DNA of 64,000 nt from Williamsia serinedens (GTDB lineage: Bacteria; Actinomycetota; Actinomycetes; Mycobacteriales; Mycobacteriaceae), in NCBI RefSeq assembly GCF_024171725.1, contig NZ_JAMTCG010000001.1, positions 186,001 through 250,000 of the forward strand, in the 5' to 3' direction. A program made the position numbers and the translations under genes. The notes under the pieces were generated by a model. The model was not told the origin of the DNA and did no database searches. It worked only from the letters and a program-made list of their open reading frames with translations. Positions 14,133 through 27,254 of this stretch are shown in pieces (position 1 is the first letter of the stretch; every line of letters starts with the position of its first letter).

Positions 14133-15116
14133 ATGGCCACTCTCTGGGCGATCAGTGATCTGCACGTCAGCCACAAGGGCAACGACGAGATCCTCGACCG
14201 CATCGCGCCGGAGACGTCGGAGGACTGGCTCATCGTCGCCGGCGACGTCGCCGAACGCACCGACGACATCGCCGACACCCTGCGCCGACTGAAGATGCGC
14301 TTCTCCACGGTCGTCTGGGTGCCCGGCAACCACGAGCTGTACACGACGGCGAAGGACCCGCTGCAGATCCACGGCGTCGCCCGCTACGACTACCTCGTCC
14401 AGGTCTGCCGCGACATTGGGGTGGTGACGCCCGAGGACATCTACCCGCTGTTCGACCCCGGTGACGGGTCACCGCCCGTGCGTGTCGTGCCCATGTTCCT
14501 GCTGTACGACTACACCTTTCGACCGCCGGGGACGACCACGGCGCTCGCGGCCCTGGCCGTCGCGCGGGAGAACAACGTCGTGGCGACCGACGAGTTCCTG
14601 CTCTCGCCCGAGCCCTACGGCACCCGGGACGCGTGGGGGAGGGCGCGCATCGCCGCCACCCGCGAGCGCCTCGACGCACTCGACCCGAGTGAGAAGACGG
14701 TGTTGATCAACCACTGGCCGCTGCGGCGCGAGCCGACGGACGCGCTCATGTACCCGGAGTTCGCCCTGTGGTGCGGGAGCGAGCTGACCGACGACTGGCA
14801 CACGCGGTACAACGCGGCGTGCTGCGTGTACGGCCACCTGCACATCCCACGGACCACCTGGTACGACGACATCCGCTTCGAGGAGGTGTCGGTCGGATAC
14901 CCCCGCGAGTGGAAGCGGCGTGGTCTGCCCGAGCCGCTGCTGCGGCGGATCGCCCCCGACGACGGGACACGCCCCGAGGACCTGCCCGAGCACGGGGCGC
15001 GCTTCCACCTCCCGCCGGACTACCGGGAACGGGCGAAGGAGTTCACCGAGCGTGTCGCCCGGCAACGGGAACTGCGGGCGAGGGCCCGCGCGGAGCGTGG
15101 GGAGGGGAGTCGGTGA
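14133..15116 (+). CDS. Calcineurin-like metallophosphoesterase
   Basis: Cytoplasmic phosphoesterase of 327 residues with the full dinuclear-metal motif set: SDLHVSH near the start, GDVAE, GNHE, NHWPL and GHLH. Substrate unknown; it corresponds to mycobacterial Rv2795c, also next to pptT. A TAGCAT box (14120-14125) ends 7 bases before the ATG, suggesting a leaderless start of a metallophosphoesterase-pptT-truB operon; each junction is a 4-base GTGA overlap. Confidence 0.88.
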   Translation: MATLWAISDLHVSHKGNDEILDRIAPETSEDWLIVAGDVAERTDDIADTLRRLKMRFSTVVWVPGNHELYTTAKDPLQIHGVARYDYLVQVCRDIGVVTPEDIYPLFDPGDGSPPVRVVPMFLLYDYTFRPPGTTTALAALAVARENNVVATDEFLLSPEPYGTRDAWGRARIAATRERLDALDPSEKTVLINHWPLRREPTDALMYPEFALWCGSELTDDWHTRYNAACCVYGHLHIPRTTWYDDIRFEEVSVGYPREWKRRGLPEPLLRRIAPDDGTRPEDLPEHGARFHLPPDYRERAKEFTERVARQRELRARARAERGEGSR

Positions 15117-15766
15117 TCGAGGACGTGGTCGGACCCGGCGTCGTGGCCGCCGAGGCGTTCGGCGACCCGGCCGACGCCGCGCTGATGCCCGGTGAGGAGT
15201 CGATCGTCGCGCGGGCGGTCGACAAACGGCGGTCGGAGTTCACGACCGTGCGGACGCTGGCGCGTCGCGCTCTCACACACCTGGGGGAGGATCCCGTACC
15301 GATCCTGCGTGGTGAGAAGGGCGAACCGCTGTGGCCGCGGGGGATCGTCGGCAGCCTCACCCACTGCGACGGCTACCGGGCCGCGGTGGTCGCACACAAA
15401 CTGCGGGTCCGGTCGGTCGGCATCGACGCCGAGCCCCACGGCCCGCTGCCCGACGGGGTGCTCGACCACGTCAGCATCGCCGAGGAGCGCGCGGTCCTGG
15501 CCGACCGTGACGACACCCTGCACTGGGACCGGATCCTGTTCTGCGCCAAGGAGGCCACCTACAAGGCCTGGTTCCCGCTCACCGGGCGGTGGCTCGGGTT
15601 CGAGGACGCCCACATCACCGTGGACCGCACCGACGACACCTCCGGCACCTTCGCCTCCCGACTGCTCGTCGACGGGTCGACGACCGACGGCGGTCCGCCG
15701 CTGACGGGCTTCGAGGGCTCGTGGCGGGTCGCCGACGGCATCATCGTCACCTCGATCACGCTGTGA
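15113..15766 (+). CDS. pptT: 4'-phosphopantetheinyl transferase (PptT type)
   Basis: Transfers phosphopantetheine from CoA to carrier-protein serines. It has 217 residues of the Sfp/EntD class; motifs include GSLTHCDGY, SVGIDAEPH with the Mg-binding Asp, and FCAKEATYKAWFPLTGRWL. In mycobacteria PptT serves the large PKS/NRPS enzymes, so it is the natural activator of the carrier domain encoded at 22978-25599 (inference). The start GTG overlaps the previous stop. Confidence 0.93.
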   Translation: MIEDVVGPGVVAAEAFGDPADAALMPGEESIVARAVDKRRSEFTTVRTLARRALTHLGEDPVPILRGEKGEPLWPRGIVGSLTHCDGYRAAVVAHKLRVRSVGIDAEPHGPLPDGVLDHVSIAEERAVLADRDDTLHWDRILFCAKEATYKAWFPLTGRWLGFEDAHITVDRTDDTSGTFASRLLVDGSTTDGGPPLTGFEGSWRVADGIIVTSITL

Positions 15767-21575: not shown

Positions 21576-22892
21576 CTGACCGGAACACGTACCCCGCAGC
21601 CCACCGGCGGCGCTGTCTCACGCAGCGTCCTGCCCGGTGGGCTGCGGGTCGTCACGGAGCATGTCCCCGGCGTGCGATCGGTCTCGATCGGCGTCTGGGT
21701 CGGCGTCGGATCACGGGACGAGACACCGGGTCTCGCCGGTGCGGCGCACTTCCTGGAACACCTGCTGTTCAAGAAGACACCCACGCGGACCGCGGCGTCG
21801 ATCGCCCGCGAACTCGACGCGGTGGGAGGTGAGCTCAACGCGTTCACCAGCAAGGAACACACCTGCTTCTACGCGCACGTCCTCGACGACCACGCAGCCA
21901 TGGCCGTCGACGTCCTCGCCGATGTCGTGGTGCGCGGTGAGTGCGCGGCCGCCGACGTCGAGGTCGAGCGCGAGGTGGTCCTCGAGGAGATGGCCATGCG
22001 CGACGACGACCACGAGGACCTGCTCGCCGACGCGTTCATGACCGCCGTCTTCGGCGACGCCCCGATCGGTCGACCGGTGATCGGTACCCCCGAGGTCGTC
22101 GGATCGCTGTCGGCGCACCGCATCCGGGGCTTCCACACCCGTCGCTACACGCCGGACCGCATGGTGGTCGCGGTGGCCGGCAACATCACCCACCGCGAGG
22201 TGGTGTCGCTGGTGCGCCGCGCGTTCGGTCCCCATCTCGACCCGGACGCGACGACCGCCGCACCGCGTCGTCGCACGCGGCCCGCGCGCGCTGTCGGGGC
22301 CGCACAGATCGTCGACCGCGACAGCGAGCAGACCCACCTCATGATCGGCATGCCCACCGGCGGTGTCGACGACCCCGACCTCCCGGCGCTCTCCGTGCTG
22401 AACGCTGCGGTCGGTGGCGGGTTGAGTTCCCGGCTGTTCCAACAGATCCGGGAGGAACGCGGTCTCGCCTACTCGGTGTACTCGTCGCTCGACACGTTCA
22501 GCGACGTCGGCACGTTCTCGGTCTACGCGGGGTGCAACCCCGAGCGCGCGGGCGAGGTGACGAACGTGGTCACCCAGATCCTCGCCGACATCGCCGAGAA
22601 CGGCATCGACCGCGACGAGATCACCCGCGCCCGGGGCTCCCTGCGGGGGTCGATGCTGCTGGGACTCGAGGACACCGGATCTCGGATGCACCGGCTCGGT
22701 CTCGGCGAGATCGACCACGGCCGGTACCGCACGGTCGCCTCGTCGCTGCGTCGCATCGACGGTGTCCGGCCCGTGCACGTCTCGGCGGTCGCGCGGAAGG
22801 TTCTCACGCACCGTCCGTCCCTGGCGGTCGTCGGTCCCTACCGGCGAGAGAAGGACCTCCCCGCGGAGCTGCGCACCCTCGTCGATCACTGA
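21576..22892 (+). CDS. M16 family zinc peptidase (PepR-like)
   Basis: Processing-type metalloprotease of about 438 residues with the inverted zinc motif HFLEH (in GAAHFLEHLLFKK), the distal Glu block (GELNAFTSKEHT) and the second M16 domain (GGLSSRLFQQIREERGLAYSVYS). The conserved N-terminal block LPGGLRVVTE is encoded from 21630 in the same frame, yet there is no in-frame ATG, GTG or TTG before GTG 21672. CTG 21576 or CTG 21570, at the pnp stop, are candidate starts. The drawn start is therefore a judgement; a conservative model starts at 21672. Confidence 0.85.
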   Translation: MTGTRTPQPTGGAVSRSVLPGGLRVVTEHVPGVRSVSIGVWVGVGSRDETPGLAGAAHFLEHLLFKKTPTRTAASIARELDAVGGELNAFTSKEHTCFYAHVLDDHAAMAVDVLADVVVRGECAAADVEVEREVVLEEMAMRDDDHEDLLADAFMTAVFGDAPIGRPVIGTPEVVGSLSAHRIRGFHTRRYTPDRMVVAVAGNITHREVVSLVRRAFGPHLDPDATTAAPRRRTRPARAVGAAQIVDRDSEQTHLMIGMPTGGVDDPDLPALSVLNAAVGGGLSSRLFQQIREERGLAYSVYSSLDTFSDVGTFSVYAGCNPERAGEVTNVVTQILADIAENGIDRDEITRARGSLRGSMLLGLEDTGSRMHRLGLGEIDHGRYRTVASSLRRIDGVRPVHVSAVARKVLTHRPSLAVVGPYRREKDLPAELRTLVDH

Positions 22893-22977
22893 CCCGTAGC
22901 CGGTTCGTCCCGACCTGTACGCTGGACATCGGTCCGGGGGAGGACCACCGTGACGGGTCATCTCGTGGGGGGATAAT

Positions 22978-25599
22978 TTGTCTGAACGTACTGCTGTCCT
23001 GTCGACGTCGCGACATCGGGCCGGGCGTCGGTCAGCGAATCGCCGTGCCGCTCGGCGACCTGCATCGATTGCCGAGGCGGTGGCTCGGAATGCGGCCGTG
23101 CGGCCGGACCATGCCGTCGTCGTGACCGAATCGGCCTCCATCACGTCGGGCGAGCTGTTCGATCGTGCGATGTGGCTCCTTCCGGCGGTCGCCGACCGTG
23201 CCGGTCCGGCTCGGACGCCGATGGCGGTCGAGATGGACGGTTCGATCGAGTCGATTGTCGCGTGCGTGGCCGTGTTGATGTCCACGGCGCCGCTCGTCCC
23301 CGTGGACAGACACCAGCCCTTGGCACGCCGCTCGCTCATCCTCGAGTCGACCGGGGCCACAGTTCTCGATCACTTCGATCTGTCGGCGAGGTGCACAGCC
23401 GCCGACGATGAACGCTCGTCGTCTCCCGTGAATCTCTCACCGCCTGAGCCGAAACCCGACGATGTCGCGATGATCGTGATGACATCGGGTTCGTCGGGCA
23501 CCCCGAAGGGCGTGCTCCTCAGTCATCGGATGTGCCTGGAGAAGGCCACCGACGTCGTCGATTCCATGAATCTGATGTCGACCGACCGGCTCGGGGTCGC
23601 GCTTCCTCTGGGGTTCGGCGCCGGCATCAACTCGCTGCTCGCCGGTCTGGTGGCCGGCGCGCGAACCCTGTGCAGAGATCCGCGATCGAGCGGCCCCGTG
23701 TCCCTGCGCGCCTGGCTGCGCGATCAGCGGGCGACGACGCTGCACTGCTCGCCGACCCTCGGCAGGGCCATCGCTCATGCAGGCGTCGCCGACCCGGCGG
23801 CCGCCGACCTGGCTGACCTGCGGGTGGTCGTCTACTACGGCGAGCCTCTCGACAGCGAAGACCTTCGCGTCACGCGAACGCACCTCGCGCCTGGGGCGTC
23901 TGTCGTGAACTGGTACGCGTGTACCGAGTGCGGTGTGGTGGCCAATCGGTCGTTCCCGCCGGGTGAAGACGTGTCGGATGGGAGGCTCGCCACCGGACGT
24001 GCGCTGTCGCGACGTCGCGTGATGATCGTCGACGATGCCGGTGGGCAGATGACGGACGGCGAGGTCGGCGAGATCGTGGTCAGCGGTGGCGCCATGGCGC
24101 TCGGGTATCTCGGAGATCAGACACTGTCGACGCTTCGCACCGCCGACGGGACGGTGTGGTACCGCACCGGTGACCGCGGTCGCCTCGACGAGCAGAACGA
24201 GTTGCGCGTCGTCGGCCGAATCGGCTCGGCTGTGAAGATCCGTGGTTATCTCGTCGAACCGGGCGAGGTGTGCTCTGCACTCCGCAGGGTTCCCGGGGTG
24301 GCCGATGCCCATGTCGAGGGGACCACTCACCGTGGTCGGGCCGGACTGGTCGCGCATGTCGCACTGGATCGGGCCGCAGCGTCACCGGTCGATGCTCATG
24401 GAATTCGCATCGGTCTCCGTTCGCTCCTGCCGGACTGGATGGTTCCAGGTGGTGTGATCGTCTACGACTCGCTGCCGCGCACCGACCGCGGGAAGATCGA
24501 CCGTGGACGACTTCGTCAGCCTGACGAGGTCGTCCATCCCGCCCCTGCCCGTCCCGCTCGACCGCTCGACACCTCCGACCTCGCAGTGCTGGCCGTACAC
24601 GAGATGGTGCGATCGGTCATGGGCCGCGACGACATGCAGATCGACGACGATCTCATCGACATGGGTGCGGACTCGCTGGCCCTGAGCACGATCCTGGCGC
24701 AGGTCGATGCGCATTTCCATGTGCAGATCGACGTCGCGCGTGTCGCTGCGAATCCGTCGATCGCGGTCATCGCTGCCGTCGCCCGCGATGAGGTCTCAGC
24801 CGATGCGGGCAGGCGTCGGGGCATGTCGGTGCTCGTGCCTCTGCGCGCCGACGGCGCCGGTACCCCTCTGTTCATGGTCGCCGGGGCAGGTGCCCCGGCC
24901 GTGTCACTGATCCCGACCACTCGAGGCCTCGCGCCGGGCCGCCCCGTCTACGGACTGCAAGCCTGGGGGCTCGAGAACCGTGGCCGGCCGGACCGTTCGG
25001 TGCGAGCGATCGCGCGGCGGAACATCGCCGCGATACGCGCGGTCGCCCCCTCAGGACCGTACCTGCTCGCCGGTCACTCGATGGGTGCCCACATCGTGTG
25101 GGAGATGGCAGGACAGCTCCGCGAGGCAGGGGAGAGCGTCGAGGCGGTCGTGTTGATCGACCCGCGTCTGTCCGCCGAGATGGTCCGTCACCTCAGCGGC
25201 CGTCCGGAGCTCGGTCCGTCGACAGCTGACGATGTGATCACACCGGAGTTGCACACCGGGCCGCCTCTGGAGGCGAGTCTGTGGCGACTGGTCGCCATAC
25301 GACTGAAGATGGCGGTGGCCGGTCTGGTGCAGTTCGATCCACTGACCCAGTGGCTGCTGTTCTACAACCTCGGGATGGCAACTCTCGCACGTCACCGACC
25401 TCGGGCACTCGATGTGCCCACGGTGGTACTGCGAACGGCCGACAACCCACTCGGACGAGAGCATTGGTCGCTGATGGCTCGTGGCCCGCTGCACATCACC
25501 GAGGTTCCTGGCGGACACACCGATCTACTGCGCGAGCCGTACGTGTCCTCGGTCGCGCGAAGCATCGACGCAGGACTCGCCGCGGTCGGCGTCCAGTGA
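22978..25599 (+). CDS. Stand-alone NRPS-like synthetase, adenylation-carrier-thioesterase
   Basis: An 873-residue single-module enzyme. The adenylation domain covers about 30-510, with A3 MTSGSSGTPKG, A5 NWYACTECGVV, A7 YRTGDRGRL, A8 KIRGYLVEPGEV and A10 PRTDRGKIDR. The carrier domain (about 535-600) has Ser566 in DMGADSLAL. The type I thioesterase (about 620-873) has GHSMG Ser701, Asp728 and His847. There is no condensation domain. The usual Asp of the amino-acid pocket (FDxS) reads FGAG, so the substrate is probably not an ordinary alpha-amino acid (inference). The start is TTG 22978 after a GGGGGG stretch. Base composition is less GC-rich than in neighbours, suggesting transfer. Product unknown; fungal and Ralstonia A-T-TE enzymes condense aryl-pyruvates. 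Confidence 0.88.
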   Translation: MSERTAVLSTSRHRAGRRSANRRAARRPASIAEAVARNAAVRPDHAVVVTESASITSGELFDRAMWLLPAVADRAGPARTPMAVEMDGSIESIVACVAVLMSTAPLVPVDRHQPLARRSLILESTGATVLDHFDLSARCTAADDERSSSPVNLSPPEPKPDDVAMIVMTSGSSGTPKGVLLSHRMCLEKATDVVDSMNLMSTDRLGVALPLGFGAGINSLLAGLVAGARTLCRDPRSSGPVSLRAWLRDQRATTLHCSPTLGRAIAHAGVADPAAADLADLRVVVYYGEPLDSEDLRVTRTHLAPGASVVNWYACTECGVVANRSFPPGEDVSDGRLATGRALSRRRVMIVDDAGGQMTDGEVGEIVVSGGAMALGYLGDQTLSTLRTADGTVWYRTGDRGRLDEQNELRVVGRIGSAVKIRGYLVEPGEVCSALRRVPGVADAHVEGTTHRGRAGLVAHVALDRAAASPVDAHGIRIGLRSLLPDWMVPGGVIVYDSLPRTDRGKIDRGRLRQPDEVVHPAPARPARPLDTSDLAVLAVHEMVRSVMGRDDMQIDDDLIDMGADSLALSTILAQVDAHFHVQIDVARVAANPSIAVIAAVARDEVSADAGRRRGMSVLVPLRADGAGTPLFMVAGAGAPAVSLIPTTRGLAPGRPVYGLQAWGLENRGRPDRSVRAIARRNIAAIRAVAPSGPYLLAGHSMGAHIVWEMAGQLREAGESVEAVVLIDPRLSAEMVRHLSGRPELGPSTADDVITPELHTGPPLEASLWRLVAIRLKMAVAGLVQFDPLTQWLLFYNLGMATLARHRPRALDVPTVVLRTADNPLGREHWSLMARGPLHITEVPGGHTDLLREPYVSSVARSIDAGLAAVGVQ

Positions 25600-25606
25600 C
25601 GGAGAG

Positions 25607-25627
25607 CCGCGTCAGCCAGTGACGCGG
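25607..25627. terminator. Bidirectional hairpin between the synthetase and permease genes
   Basis: Arms CCGCGTCA (25607-25614) and TGACGCGG (25620-25627), a perfect 8-bp stem with a 5-base loop, in the convergent junction. The permease stop lies inside the left arm. Confidence 0.6.
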
Positions 25628-27117
25628 GCCCTGTGCTCGGCCTCGGCCTCGGCCCACGCCGACCGGATGCGGCCGCCGGTGTGCTCGACGACGTTGCCGC
25701 GGATGCAGTACCACCCGATGGTCAGCGCGGCCGCGATGACGGGGATGCCGACGACGACGACCCAGAAGTCGACCTGTCCGCCCTCGTGGTCGAGGTATCC
25801 CGAGATGGCGAGGCCGATGATCACCGCGGCCAGGAAGACCAGCCCGGCGATGCTCGCCCACGGATAGAGCGGTGCCTGGAACGAACTGCGGGGGATGATC
25901 CCCTTGTTCACCAGCGAGCGGAGTTTCAGCTGGCAGGCGAAGATCGTGCCCCACGTGAAGACGATGCCGATCGACGCCGCCTCCAGGGCGATGTCGAAGG
26001 CGCGGCCGGGAACCGTCGCGTTGAGGACGACGCCCAGCACGTAGACGACGCTGGTCATCGCGATGCCGGCCCACGGGACGCCACCACCGCTCATCTTCGT
26101 CGTGAAACCCGGTGCCTGCTTGCTCATCCCGAGGCTGCGCAGCACACGACCGGTCGAGTAGAGACCGGAGTTCAGGCTCGACATGGCGGCGACGATGAGG
26201 ACCACCTGGATGACGTCGCCCATCCACCCGAACCCGAGCGCCTGGAACACGGTGACGAACGGGCTGGTGCCCGACGTGTACGAGGTCGTCGGCAGCATCG
26301 CGCACAGCAGCAGGATCGACCCGATGTAGAACACCGCGATCCGGAAGATGACCGCGTTGACCGCCCGCGGGACCTCCTTCTCGGCGTCCTCCATCTCGCC
26401 GGCCGCAACACCGACCATCTCGATCGCGGCGTACGCGAAGACGACACCCGACATGACCAGGATCGGTCCGTACCAGTTGTAGGGGTCCATGGTGGGCCAG
26501 AACCCGCCCGGGTTGCTCCACAGGTTCGAAAAGCCGGCCTGGTGGTCGCCGACGTGGACCGCGCCGATCACCACGACGAGCCCCACGACGAGGAACAGCA
26601 CGATCGCGCCTACCTTCAGGATCGACGCCCAGAACTCGAACTCACCGAATGCCTTCGCGCTGAGCAGGTTCACCGCGAGCACCACCACGAGGGCGATGAG
26701 TGCCGACGCCCAGTTCGGCATCGACGGGAACTTGTCGCGGACGTAGACGCCGACGGCCGACAGCTCGGCGACGCCGGTGAGCGCCCAGTTGAGCCAGTAC
26801 ATCCAGCCGGTGACGTAGGCGGCCTTCTCGCCGAAGAACTCGCGCATGTAGGAGACGAACGCGCCGCTGGTGGAGCGGTGCAGCACGAGCTCGCCCAACG
26901 CCCGCATGAGGAAGTAGGCGACGACGCCGGCGACCGCGTAGCTCACCAGGAGTGCGGGGCCGTTGCTGTTCAGGCGCGACGCGGACCCGAGGAACAGGCC
27001 GGTGCCGATGGCCCCGCCGATCGCGATCATCTGCACCTGTCGGCGACCGAGTGACTGCTTGTACCCGACCGTCTCCGCGTCGAGATGCGCTGTTGCCGAG
27101 GAGGTGTCCGAACTCAT
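25612..27117 (-). CDS. Amino-acid permease (AAT/APC family)
   Basis: Inner-membrane symporter of 501 residues with 12 predicted helices. The family start block QMIAIGGAIGTGLFLGS is at about residue 30, with the conserved region MRALGELVLHRSTSGAFVSYMREFFG. It resembles asparagine (AnsP) and D-Ala/Gly (CycA) permeases; substrate cannot be read from sequence. Alanine dehydrogenase lies 2 kb away, so alanine or a related amino acid is plausible. ATG 27117 begins MSSDTSSATAHLDAE. Confidence 0.85.
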   Translation of the reverse strand: MSSDTSSATAHLDAETVGYKQSLGRRQVQMIAIGGAIGTGLFLGSASRLNSNGPALLVSYAVAGVVAYFLMRALGELVLHRSTSGAFVSYMREFFGEKAAYVTGWMYWLNWALTGVAELSAVGVYVRDKFPSMPNWASALIALVVVLAVNLLSAKAFGEFEFWASILKVGAIVLFLVVGLVVVIGAVHVGDHQAGFSNLWSNPGGFWPTMDPYNWYGPILVMSGVVFAYAAIEMVGVAAGEMEDAEKEVPRAVNAVIFRIAVFYIGSILLLCAMLPTTSYTSGTSPFVTVFQALGFGWMGDVIQVVLIVAAMSSLNSGLYSTGRVLRSLGMSKQAPGFTTKMSGGGVPWAGIAMTSVVYVLGVVLNATVPGRAFDIALEAASIGIVFTWGTIFACQLKLRSLVNKGIIPRSSFQAPLYPWASIAGLVFLAAVIIGLAISGYLDHEGGQVDFWVVVVGIPVIAAALTIGWYCIRGNVVEHTGGRIRSAWAEAEAEHRARVTG

Positions 27118-27254
27118 GAGGTGTGAGTATGCGCACACGGCGTTTCGTCGATGTTGCCGGGGCACGCCTGCGATGTTGCCCGACCGGACATCTCGTACAA
27201 GGCGGACAGGCGACCTGCGGCGCGTCGGCCCGGTCGGTGTGTCACGATCGGCCC

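Follow-up and report, generated by a model that had tools for sequence, protein, structure and literature searches.

The stand-alone aryl-acid adenylation (A) domains EntE and DhbE are separate proteins with no fused peptidyl carrier (PCP) or thioesterase (TE) domain, and they carry Asn at position 235 (GrsA numbering), where the Asp of ordinary A domains holds the alpha-amino group of the substrate. In the termination modules of nonribosomal peptide synthetases (NRPSs) such as EntF, AB3403 and SrfA-C, A, PCP and TE are joined to a condensation (C) domain, Asp235 is present and the A5 motif reads NxYGPTE. The fungal and bacterial quinone and furanone synthetases AtrA, HapA, RalA and EchA have the order A-PCP-TE, lack a C domain and have replaced Asp235. 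According to the accessible part of PMC10316625, Val at the first code position (Val235) marks such alpha-keto-acid enzymes; the accessible part of PMC10949194 describes keto-acid A domains as having an aliphatic residue there and otherwise the code of the corresponding amino acid. Adenylating ligases are also known for 3-amino-4-hydroxybenzoate (3,4-AHBA): in the accessible sections of the sources, one couples 3,4-AHBA to itself in closoxazole biosynthesis (PMC12118335) and one is proposed to couple it to p-vinylphenol in bagremycin biosynthesis (PMC6692506). Here we describe APT, an A-PCP-TE synthetase of 873 residues encoded at 22978..25599 on the plus strand of a 64-kb stretch from the genome of a Williamsia, an actinobacterium of soil (contig NZ_JAMTCG010000001.1, 186,001 to 250,000; hereafter the window). 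We favour, with moderate confidence, the view that APT is a self-contained NRPS-like synthetase whose A domain would adenylate a carboxylic acid other than an alpha-amino acid, most likely a polar-substituted aromatic acid, which would be loaded on the PCP and released by the TE.

APT is an A-PCP-TE protein with a replaced Asp235

Pfam placed four domains in APT: AMP-binding at residues 36-378 (1.9e-48; 23083..24111), AMP-binding_C at 433-506 (24274..24495), ending at Lys506, which corresponds to Lys517, PP-binding at 540-600 (24595..24777) and Thioesterase at 656-865 (4.7e-16; 24943..25572). It listed nothing further and no C domain. A C-domain query taken from an NRPS of the same genome also found no match in the window, while the A domain of that same NRPS did detect APT. 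The carrier serine (Ser566, 24673-24675) and the type I TE residues Ser701 (25078-25080), Asp728 (25159-25161) and His847 (25516-25518) were unchanged across 16 aligned proteins. The predicted structure of the A domain (residues 25-516; mean pLDDT 88.8) has the standard fold, and the confident A and TE models resemble many folds about equally, that of the TE being an ordinary type I fold.

Alignment to LgrA put Gly214 of the A4 motif, FGAG (residues 213-216, 23614..23625), at the Asp235 position, and the A5 motif reads NWYACTECG (residues 311-319, 23908..23934), with Trp312 taken from the motif as position 322. APT thus differs from the EntF, AB3403 and SrfA-C modules, whose A and TE folds and catalytic residues are alike, in having no C domain, no Asp235 and an NWYAxTE motif, and from EntE and DhbE in being a fused protein with Gly235. 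A sequence-only reading of the window had called a single-gene A-PCP-TE protein with every active-site residue and no C domain, with FGAG in place of FDxS and this A5 motif; each of these points was borne out.

The named Williamsia records nearest to the window, those of W. maris DSM 44693 and of Williamsia sp. CHRR-6, encode related proteins that align over almost the full length at 63% and 59% identity. When the GTDB family (301 genomes) was searched with the relative L028, 65 matches reached E ≤ 1e-110; they came from 58 genomes and from 8 of the 31 genera. A plasmid search had no match at 1e-80. At 1e-120, seven of the eight Williamsia genomes were positive. The genus gave ten matches, nine of which scored above 1100 bits; the tenth (430 bits) was a paralogue encoded by the same genome as APT (L026, G000:C5:401827-404154), 33% identical to APT and alignable as A-PCP-TE over residues 73-870. 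This paralogue shares the domain order but retains FDLS and NAYGPAE, where APT has FGAG and NWYACTECG; it groups with the outgroup in our tree and probably uses an amino acid.

To characterize the family we aligned 53 proteins, namely 50 of the 65 matches together with those of G054, G089 and G090, and added two outgroups. A-PCP-TE proteins that are more remote and retain Asp235, as the paralogue does, are poorly represented in this set, because the matches were picked by similarity. Position 235 was Gly in 45 members, Ser in six and Ala in two, and never Asp or Val. Lys517, the PCP Ser and the TE Ser, Asp and His were retained in 53/53, and the active site is therefore changed but maintained rather than decaying. 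An active site that is maintained yet lacks Asp235 probably accepts something other than an alpha-amino acid. APT carries all the marks of the family: the A-PCP-TE order, Gly, Ser or Ala at 235, His278 (50/53), the PCP Ser and the TE triad; judged as an alpha-amino-acid A domain, it has Lys517 and, at 235, Gly instead of Asp.

As a control, we examined 30 other A-domain segments of the window's genome, comprising those that cover position 235 in selected stretches plus L026. Asp was found at 235 in 26 of them automatically, and in 28 after two shifted rows had been corrected by eye. The loss of the residue that holds the alpha-amino group, noted from the sequence for APT, is thus family-wide and sets APT apart from other A domains of its genome. 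The two control segments without Asp235 were an NRPS domain and a fragment that may come from an acyl-CoA-ligase-like protein. In this genome, a minus-strand frame (L129, residues 422-895; G000:C2) encodes an NRPS A domain without FDxS that reads FIDGATE, with the A5 motif NSYGSSEV; its substrate is perhaps another non-amino acid. Open frames as large as 12624 and 11379 aa, of NRPS type, are present in G000:C4 at ~386000-474000.

The family falls into few pocket codes

The pocket code of APT is GANHVYWVVK. It belongs to a group of 37 members (group I) with the pattern [G/S]A[N/T]HxYWxxK, in which Ala236, Tyr301 and Trp322 occur in 37/37, Asn or Thr239 in 37/37 and His278 in 34/37. This pocket is constant across genera despite an overall identity of about 40%. 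His278 is also present in all 16 members outside group I. Group II (six members) has the code GGDHTCLN[L/I]K and group III (eight members) has D239, C301 and W322; two divergent members lie outside all three groups. Group I was not a clade in a midpoint-rooted quick tree, in which groups II and III fell inside its range. The shared His278 and the polar residues of group I would fit a substituted aromatic acid, without proving it.

Group II genes lie with genes for 3,4-AHBA synthesis

The only direct hint of a substrate class came from the neighbours of group II, of which one representative of each family was identified with Pfam and NCBIfam. Upstream of APT and on its strand, we found a monooxygenase gene resembling p-hydroxybenzoate hydroxylase (6/6), a gene of the type II dehydroquinate synthase (DHQS II)/3,4-AHBA synthase type (6/6), an ADH-synthase-type aldolase gene (5/6; uncalled in G054) and a luciferase-like monooxygenase gene, called in four of the six loci. 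At the luciferase-like position, G137 has 1251 bp free of called genes before APT, and in G298b an opposite-strand open reading frame was called. In G149 the five genes are consecutive, with called gaps of 119, 27, 6 and 19 bp. With the model of the DHQS II family as a whole the group II synthase scored 489 bits (cut-off 375); with that of the BagC/FevH 3,4-AHBA synthases, an exception model with a cut-off of 750, it scored 426 bits and so stayed under the threshold. PF01959, the 3,4-AHBA synthase family, was found in 6 of the 20 genomes tested, which are exactly those with a group II protein. Operon-like sets of 3,4-AHBA synthesis genes, an A-PCP-TE gene and flavin monooxygenase genes, with glycosyltransferase and major facilitator superfamily genes around them, were seen at L084, L087, L098, L100, L102 and L039; L084 and L087 also contain an arylamine N-acetyltransferase-like gene family (f96).

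Published 3,4-AHBA pathways, as far as the sources are accessible, combine the same two precursor enzymes as the group II operons with adenylating ligases (PMC12118335, PMC6692506, PMC10179220). The ligases of the closoxazole, bagremycin and ahbamycin pathways (ClxA, PfxC, FevW and AhbL2) act, or are proposed to act, alongside these two enzymes, and couple an activated aryl acid to another phenol or aryl acid. They are described as AMP/CoA ligases, and the word 'carrier' is absent from the main texts of the three papers, whereas APT has a PCP and a TE. These two domains could achieve by a thioester route what the ligases do, be it coupling to the same acid or to a phenol. For APT itself, the A domain, with a pocket predicted to comprise Gly214, Ala215, Asn218, His256, Tyr287 and Trp312, would adenylate an acid without an alpha-amino group; the acid would be loaded onto the PCP. 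Release would fall to the TE, of type I, by transfer to a nucleophile, which may be another molecule of the same acid, a different acceptor or water. Since group II operons carry 3,4-AHBA synthesis genes, an aryl acid is the likely substrate class, although for the pocket of the window's enzyme we infer this class, as we do the identity of the acid and the outcome of the TE step.

Several observations weigh against extending an aryl-acid substrate to the window. Its pocket differs from that of group II at seven positions (236, 239, 299, 301, 322, 330 and 331), so the group II substrate cannot simply be transferred to it. The code positions were set by sequence motifs and the alignment to LgrA, with neither GrsA itself nor a ligand structure used, and a comparison by fold did not separate aryl-acid from amino-acid A domains. 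No aryl-acid gene was found near the window's APT. PF01959 was absent from all eight Williamsia genomes, including that of the window, and PF01947, the family of Rv2949c, from all 20 genomes. Finally, each of two Tyr codes given in PMC11355689 agrees with the window's code at four of ten positions. We considered 3,4-AHBA as the window enzyme's own substrate, and 4-hydroxybenzoate supplied by an Rv2949c-type lyase; neither gained support, the genome having no PF01959 match and PF01947 being absent from the 20 genomes. With GANHVYWVVK in place of GGDHTCLN[L/I]K and no 3,4-AHBA synthase family gene in its genome, the window's enzyme falls outside group II and differs from the 3,4-AHBA ligase clusters.

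Alternative activities

The likeness to Tyr codes also speaks for the proposal that APT condenses alpha-keto acids as RalA, EchA and AtrA do, loading two aromatic keto acids that the TE joins to a furanone or quinone. This proposal would account for the A-PCP-TE order, the missing Asp235, the intact TE and the want of a partner, and position 299 of the window's enzyme is Val, where polyporic acid synthetases have Val or Ile in the accessible part of PMC10316625. Position 299 nevertheless varies in group I (V 20, T 10, A 4, I 3), and the first code position is Gly and not the Val that marks keto-acid enzymes, a residue found in none of the 53 members (APT relatives have Gly, Ser or Ala); the comparison with the keto-acid synthetases was made through published code marks. 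Of the amino-acid codes in PMC11355689, those for Phe and Tyr were compared; the Phe code agreed at just two of the ten positions, each of the two Tyr codes at four. In contrast to the quinone and furanone synthetases, moreover, one APT subgroup sits in aryl-acid operons, and this is the sole subgroup with an informative operon. Among the fold matches listed for the APT models there were no keto-acid synthetases or AtrA-type TEs, an absence that excludes nothing. We regard keto-acid condensation as improbable. The sequence-only reading had offered a keto or aryl acid, by analogy with furanone and quinone synthetases; a substrate that is not an alpha-amino acid still stands, with the aryl acid favoured by the group II operons, while the keto-acid analogy is weakened by the missing Val235, the code as a whole lying further from Phe than from Tyr.

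Slightly less doubtful, yet still unlikely in our view, is a building-block module, in which an acid held on the PCP would be modified by a separate, possibly flavin, enzyme and hydrolysed off by the TE to serve elsewhere, for instance in an NRPS. Flavin-type genes do occur near APT in several subgroups: besides the luciferase-like genes of group II, one adjoins APT in G182, and a nitroreductase-like gene (f48) adjoins it in G158b, G333 and G241 and is separated from it by two called genes in G006. Of 43 loci, four had C-domain matches near APT at 1e-5; at 1e-3 and without the filter this rose to five, the added one (G282) being weak. All belong to group III-1, and three of these five loci were extended, each of which showed large NRPS frames. 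Close homologues are thus not always paired with C-domain proteins, a pairing that the sequence-only reading had named as telling against its proposal. Against a building-block role for the window's enzyme, no such partner was seen beside its gene or those of its three syntenic congeners, and beside the window's copy there was no biosynthetic partner of any kind. The earlier statement that APT has no partner enzymes holds for the window but not for the family.

The TE of Pks13 transfers mycolate to trehalose, and by analogy APT might pass its acid on to an envelope sugar or lipid. Pks13 was in the fold list of the TE, but it stood among cyclases and other thioesterases, and the neighbours of the window's APT are not envelope genes; we consider this role very unlikely. 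Genes beside APT in group III-1 (f51, f0 and f29) were at first taken as wzm, wzt and glfT1, and an arabinogalactan locus was considered for all of group III. It was dropped because the ATP-binding cassette (ABC) genes look DrrAB-like, with family matches only to PF01061/PF00005, and because C-domain matches lie nearby. Genes resembling aftA and embC were beside APT only in G158b, G333 and G241. At L097, L101 and L108, an A-PCP-TE gene and a divergent nitroreductase-like gene lie between aftA-like and embC-like genes.

The APT locus in Williamsia

In the window, APT lies between a conserved M16 peptidase gene (pepR-like; 21672..22892, plus strand) and a conserved amino-acid permease gene (25612..27165, minus strand), the latter also present in four Williamsia without APT at this place. 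The pepR-APT-permease order occurs in the window's genome (G000), G001 and G007, and in G002 APT lies beyond the permease. APT is at the same place in another genus (G023) and downstream of pepR in G012, G117 and G132. In nine g6 genomes it follows an FtsX/MacB-type permease gene (9/9); five of the nine maps also show a called gene of an ABC ATPase family, and six an alpha/beta hydrolase gene downstream. An open reading frame at 14768..15766 (plus strand), about 7 kb from APT, matches 4'-phosphopantetheinyl transferase (PF17837, 3.2e-27; PF01648, 1.2e-13) and could encode the enzyme that primes the carrier domain.

The TTG start is preceded, at a distance of 5 nt, by GGGGGG (22967..22972, plus strand), a likely ribosome-binding site. 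It is supported by the orthologue L041, in which GGGGGGG-N5-GTG-TCC stands at the point of GGGGGG-N5-TTG-TCT in the window; the next in-frame start (23080) would truncate the aligned N-terminal part. We thus retain the start proposed from the sequence alone. A sigma-70-like match ending at 22977 (one found, 0.2 expected) was judged a chance hit because it adjoins a start codon backed by a relative.

The sequence-only reading had also placed the gene inside an otherwise conserved order, which the pepR/permease comparison confirmed, and had considered it probably acquired, partly for a G+C below that of its neighbours. This is the case at third codon positions (0.764 against 0.889-0.948 in five neighbours) but not for total G+C (0.677, with 0.671 in the adjacent permease). 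The APT locus is a variable slot, occupied by APT or by an AAC(3)-like gene, or left empty. G005 has an aminoglycoside 3-N-acetyltransferase-like gene (Antibiotic_NAT, PF02522; L119:2518-3315) between pepR and the permease, and the matching stretch of G006 (L120) is 75% identical to it; a search of the G005/G006 gap for an APT remnant found none (best E 0.006). G003 and G004 are empty at this spot. The divergence of APT resembles vertical descent: identities to the copies of G007, G001 and G002 are 64%, 64% and 60%, close to those of pepR (69%, 68% and 66%), and these copies cluster with that of G000 in the quick tree (SH-aLRT 100). Recent acquisition as the sole explanation is accordingly not upheld; in view of the variable slot, the earlier reading is partly right. 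Gain and loss are both possible, because G005 and G006, the nearest by pepR (90% and 84%), hold a different gene, and G003 and G004 hold nothing.

Implications

Stand-alone A-PCP-TE proteins are already known as a kind. We recognized no description of the APT family, its pocket groups or the 3,4-AHBA link in the literature searched, which mostly excluded subscription papers, and these appear to be new. Tentatively, the family may represent one-protein aryl-acid synthetases of the Mycobacteriales, in which the TE, not a free AMP ligase, would couple aryl acids bound to the carrier, either with one another or with an acceptor. The group that includes the window's enzyme would then act autonomously on a general metabolite and give an undescribed class of product. 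As single-gene A-PCP-TE synthetases, these proteins should be easy to express and their product could be read directly. Because different genera share few fixed pocket codes, one of which has a known precursor pathway, the family offers a small natural test set for the codes of A domains that do not use amino acids. The products of such enzymes may also escape cluster-based mining, because the gene stands alone.
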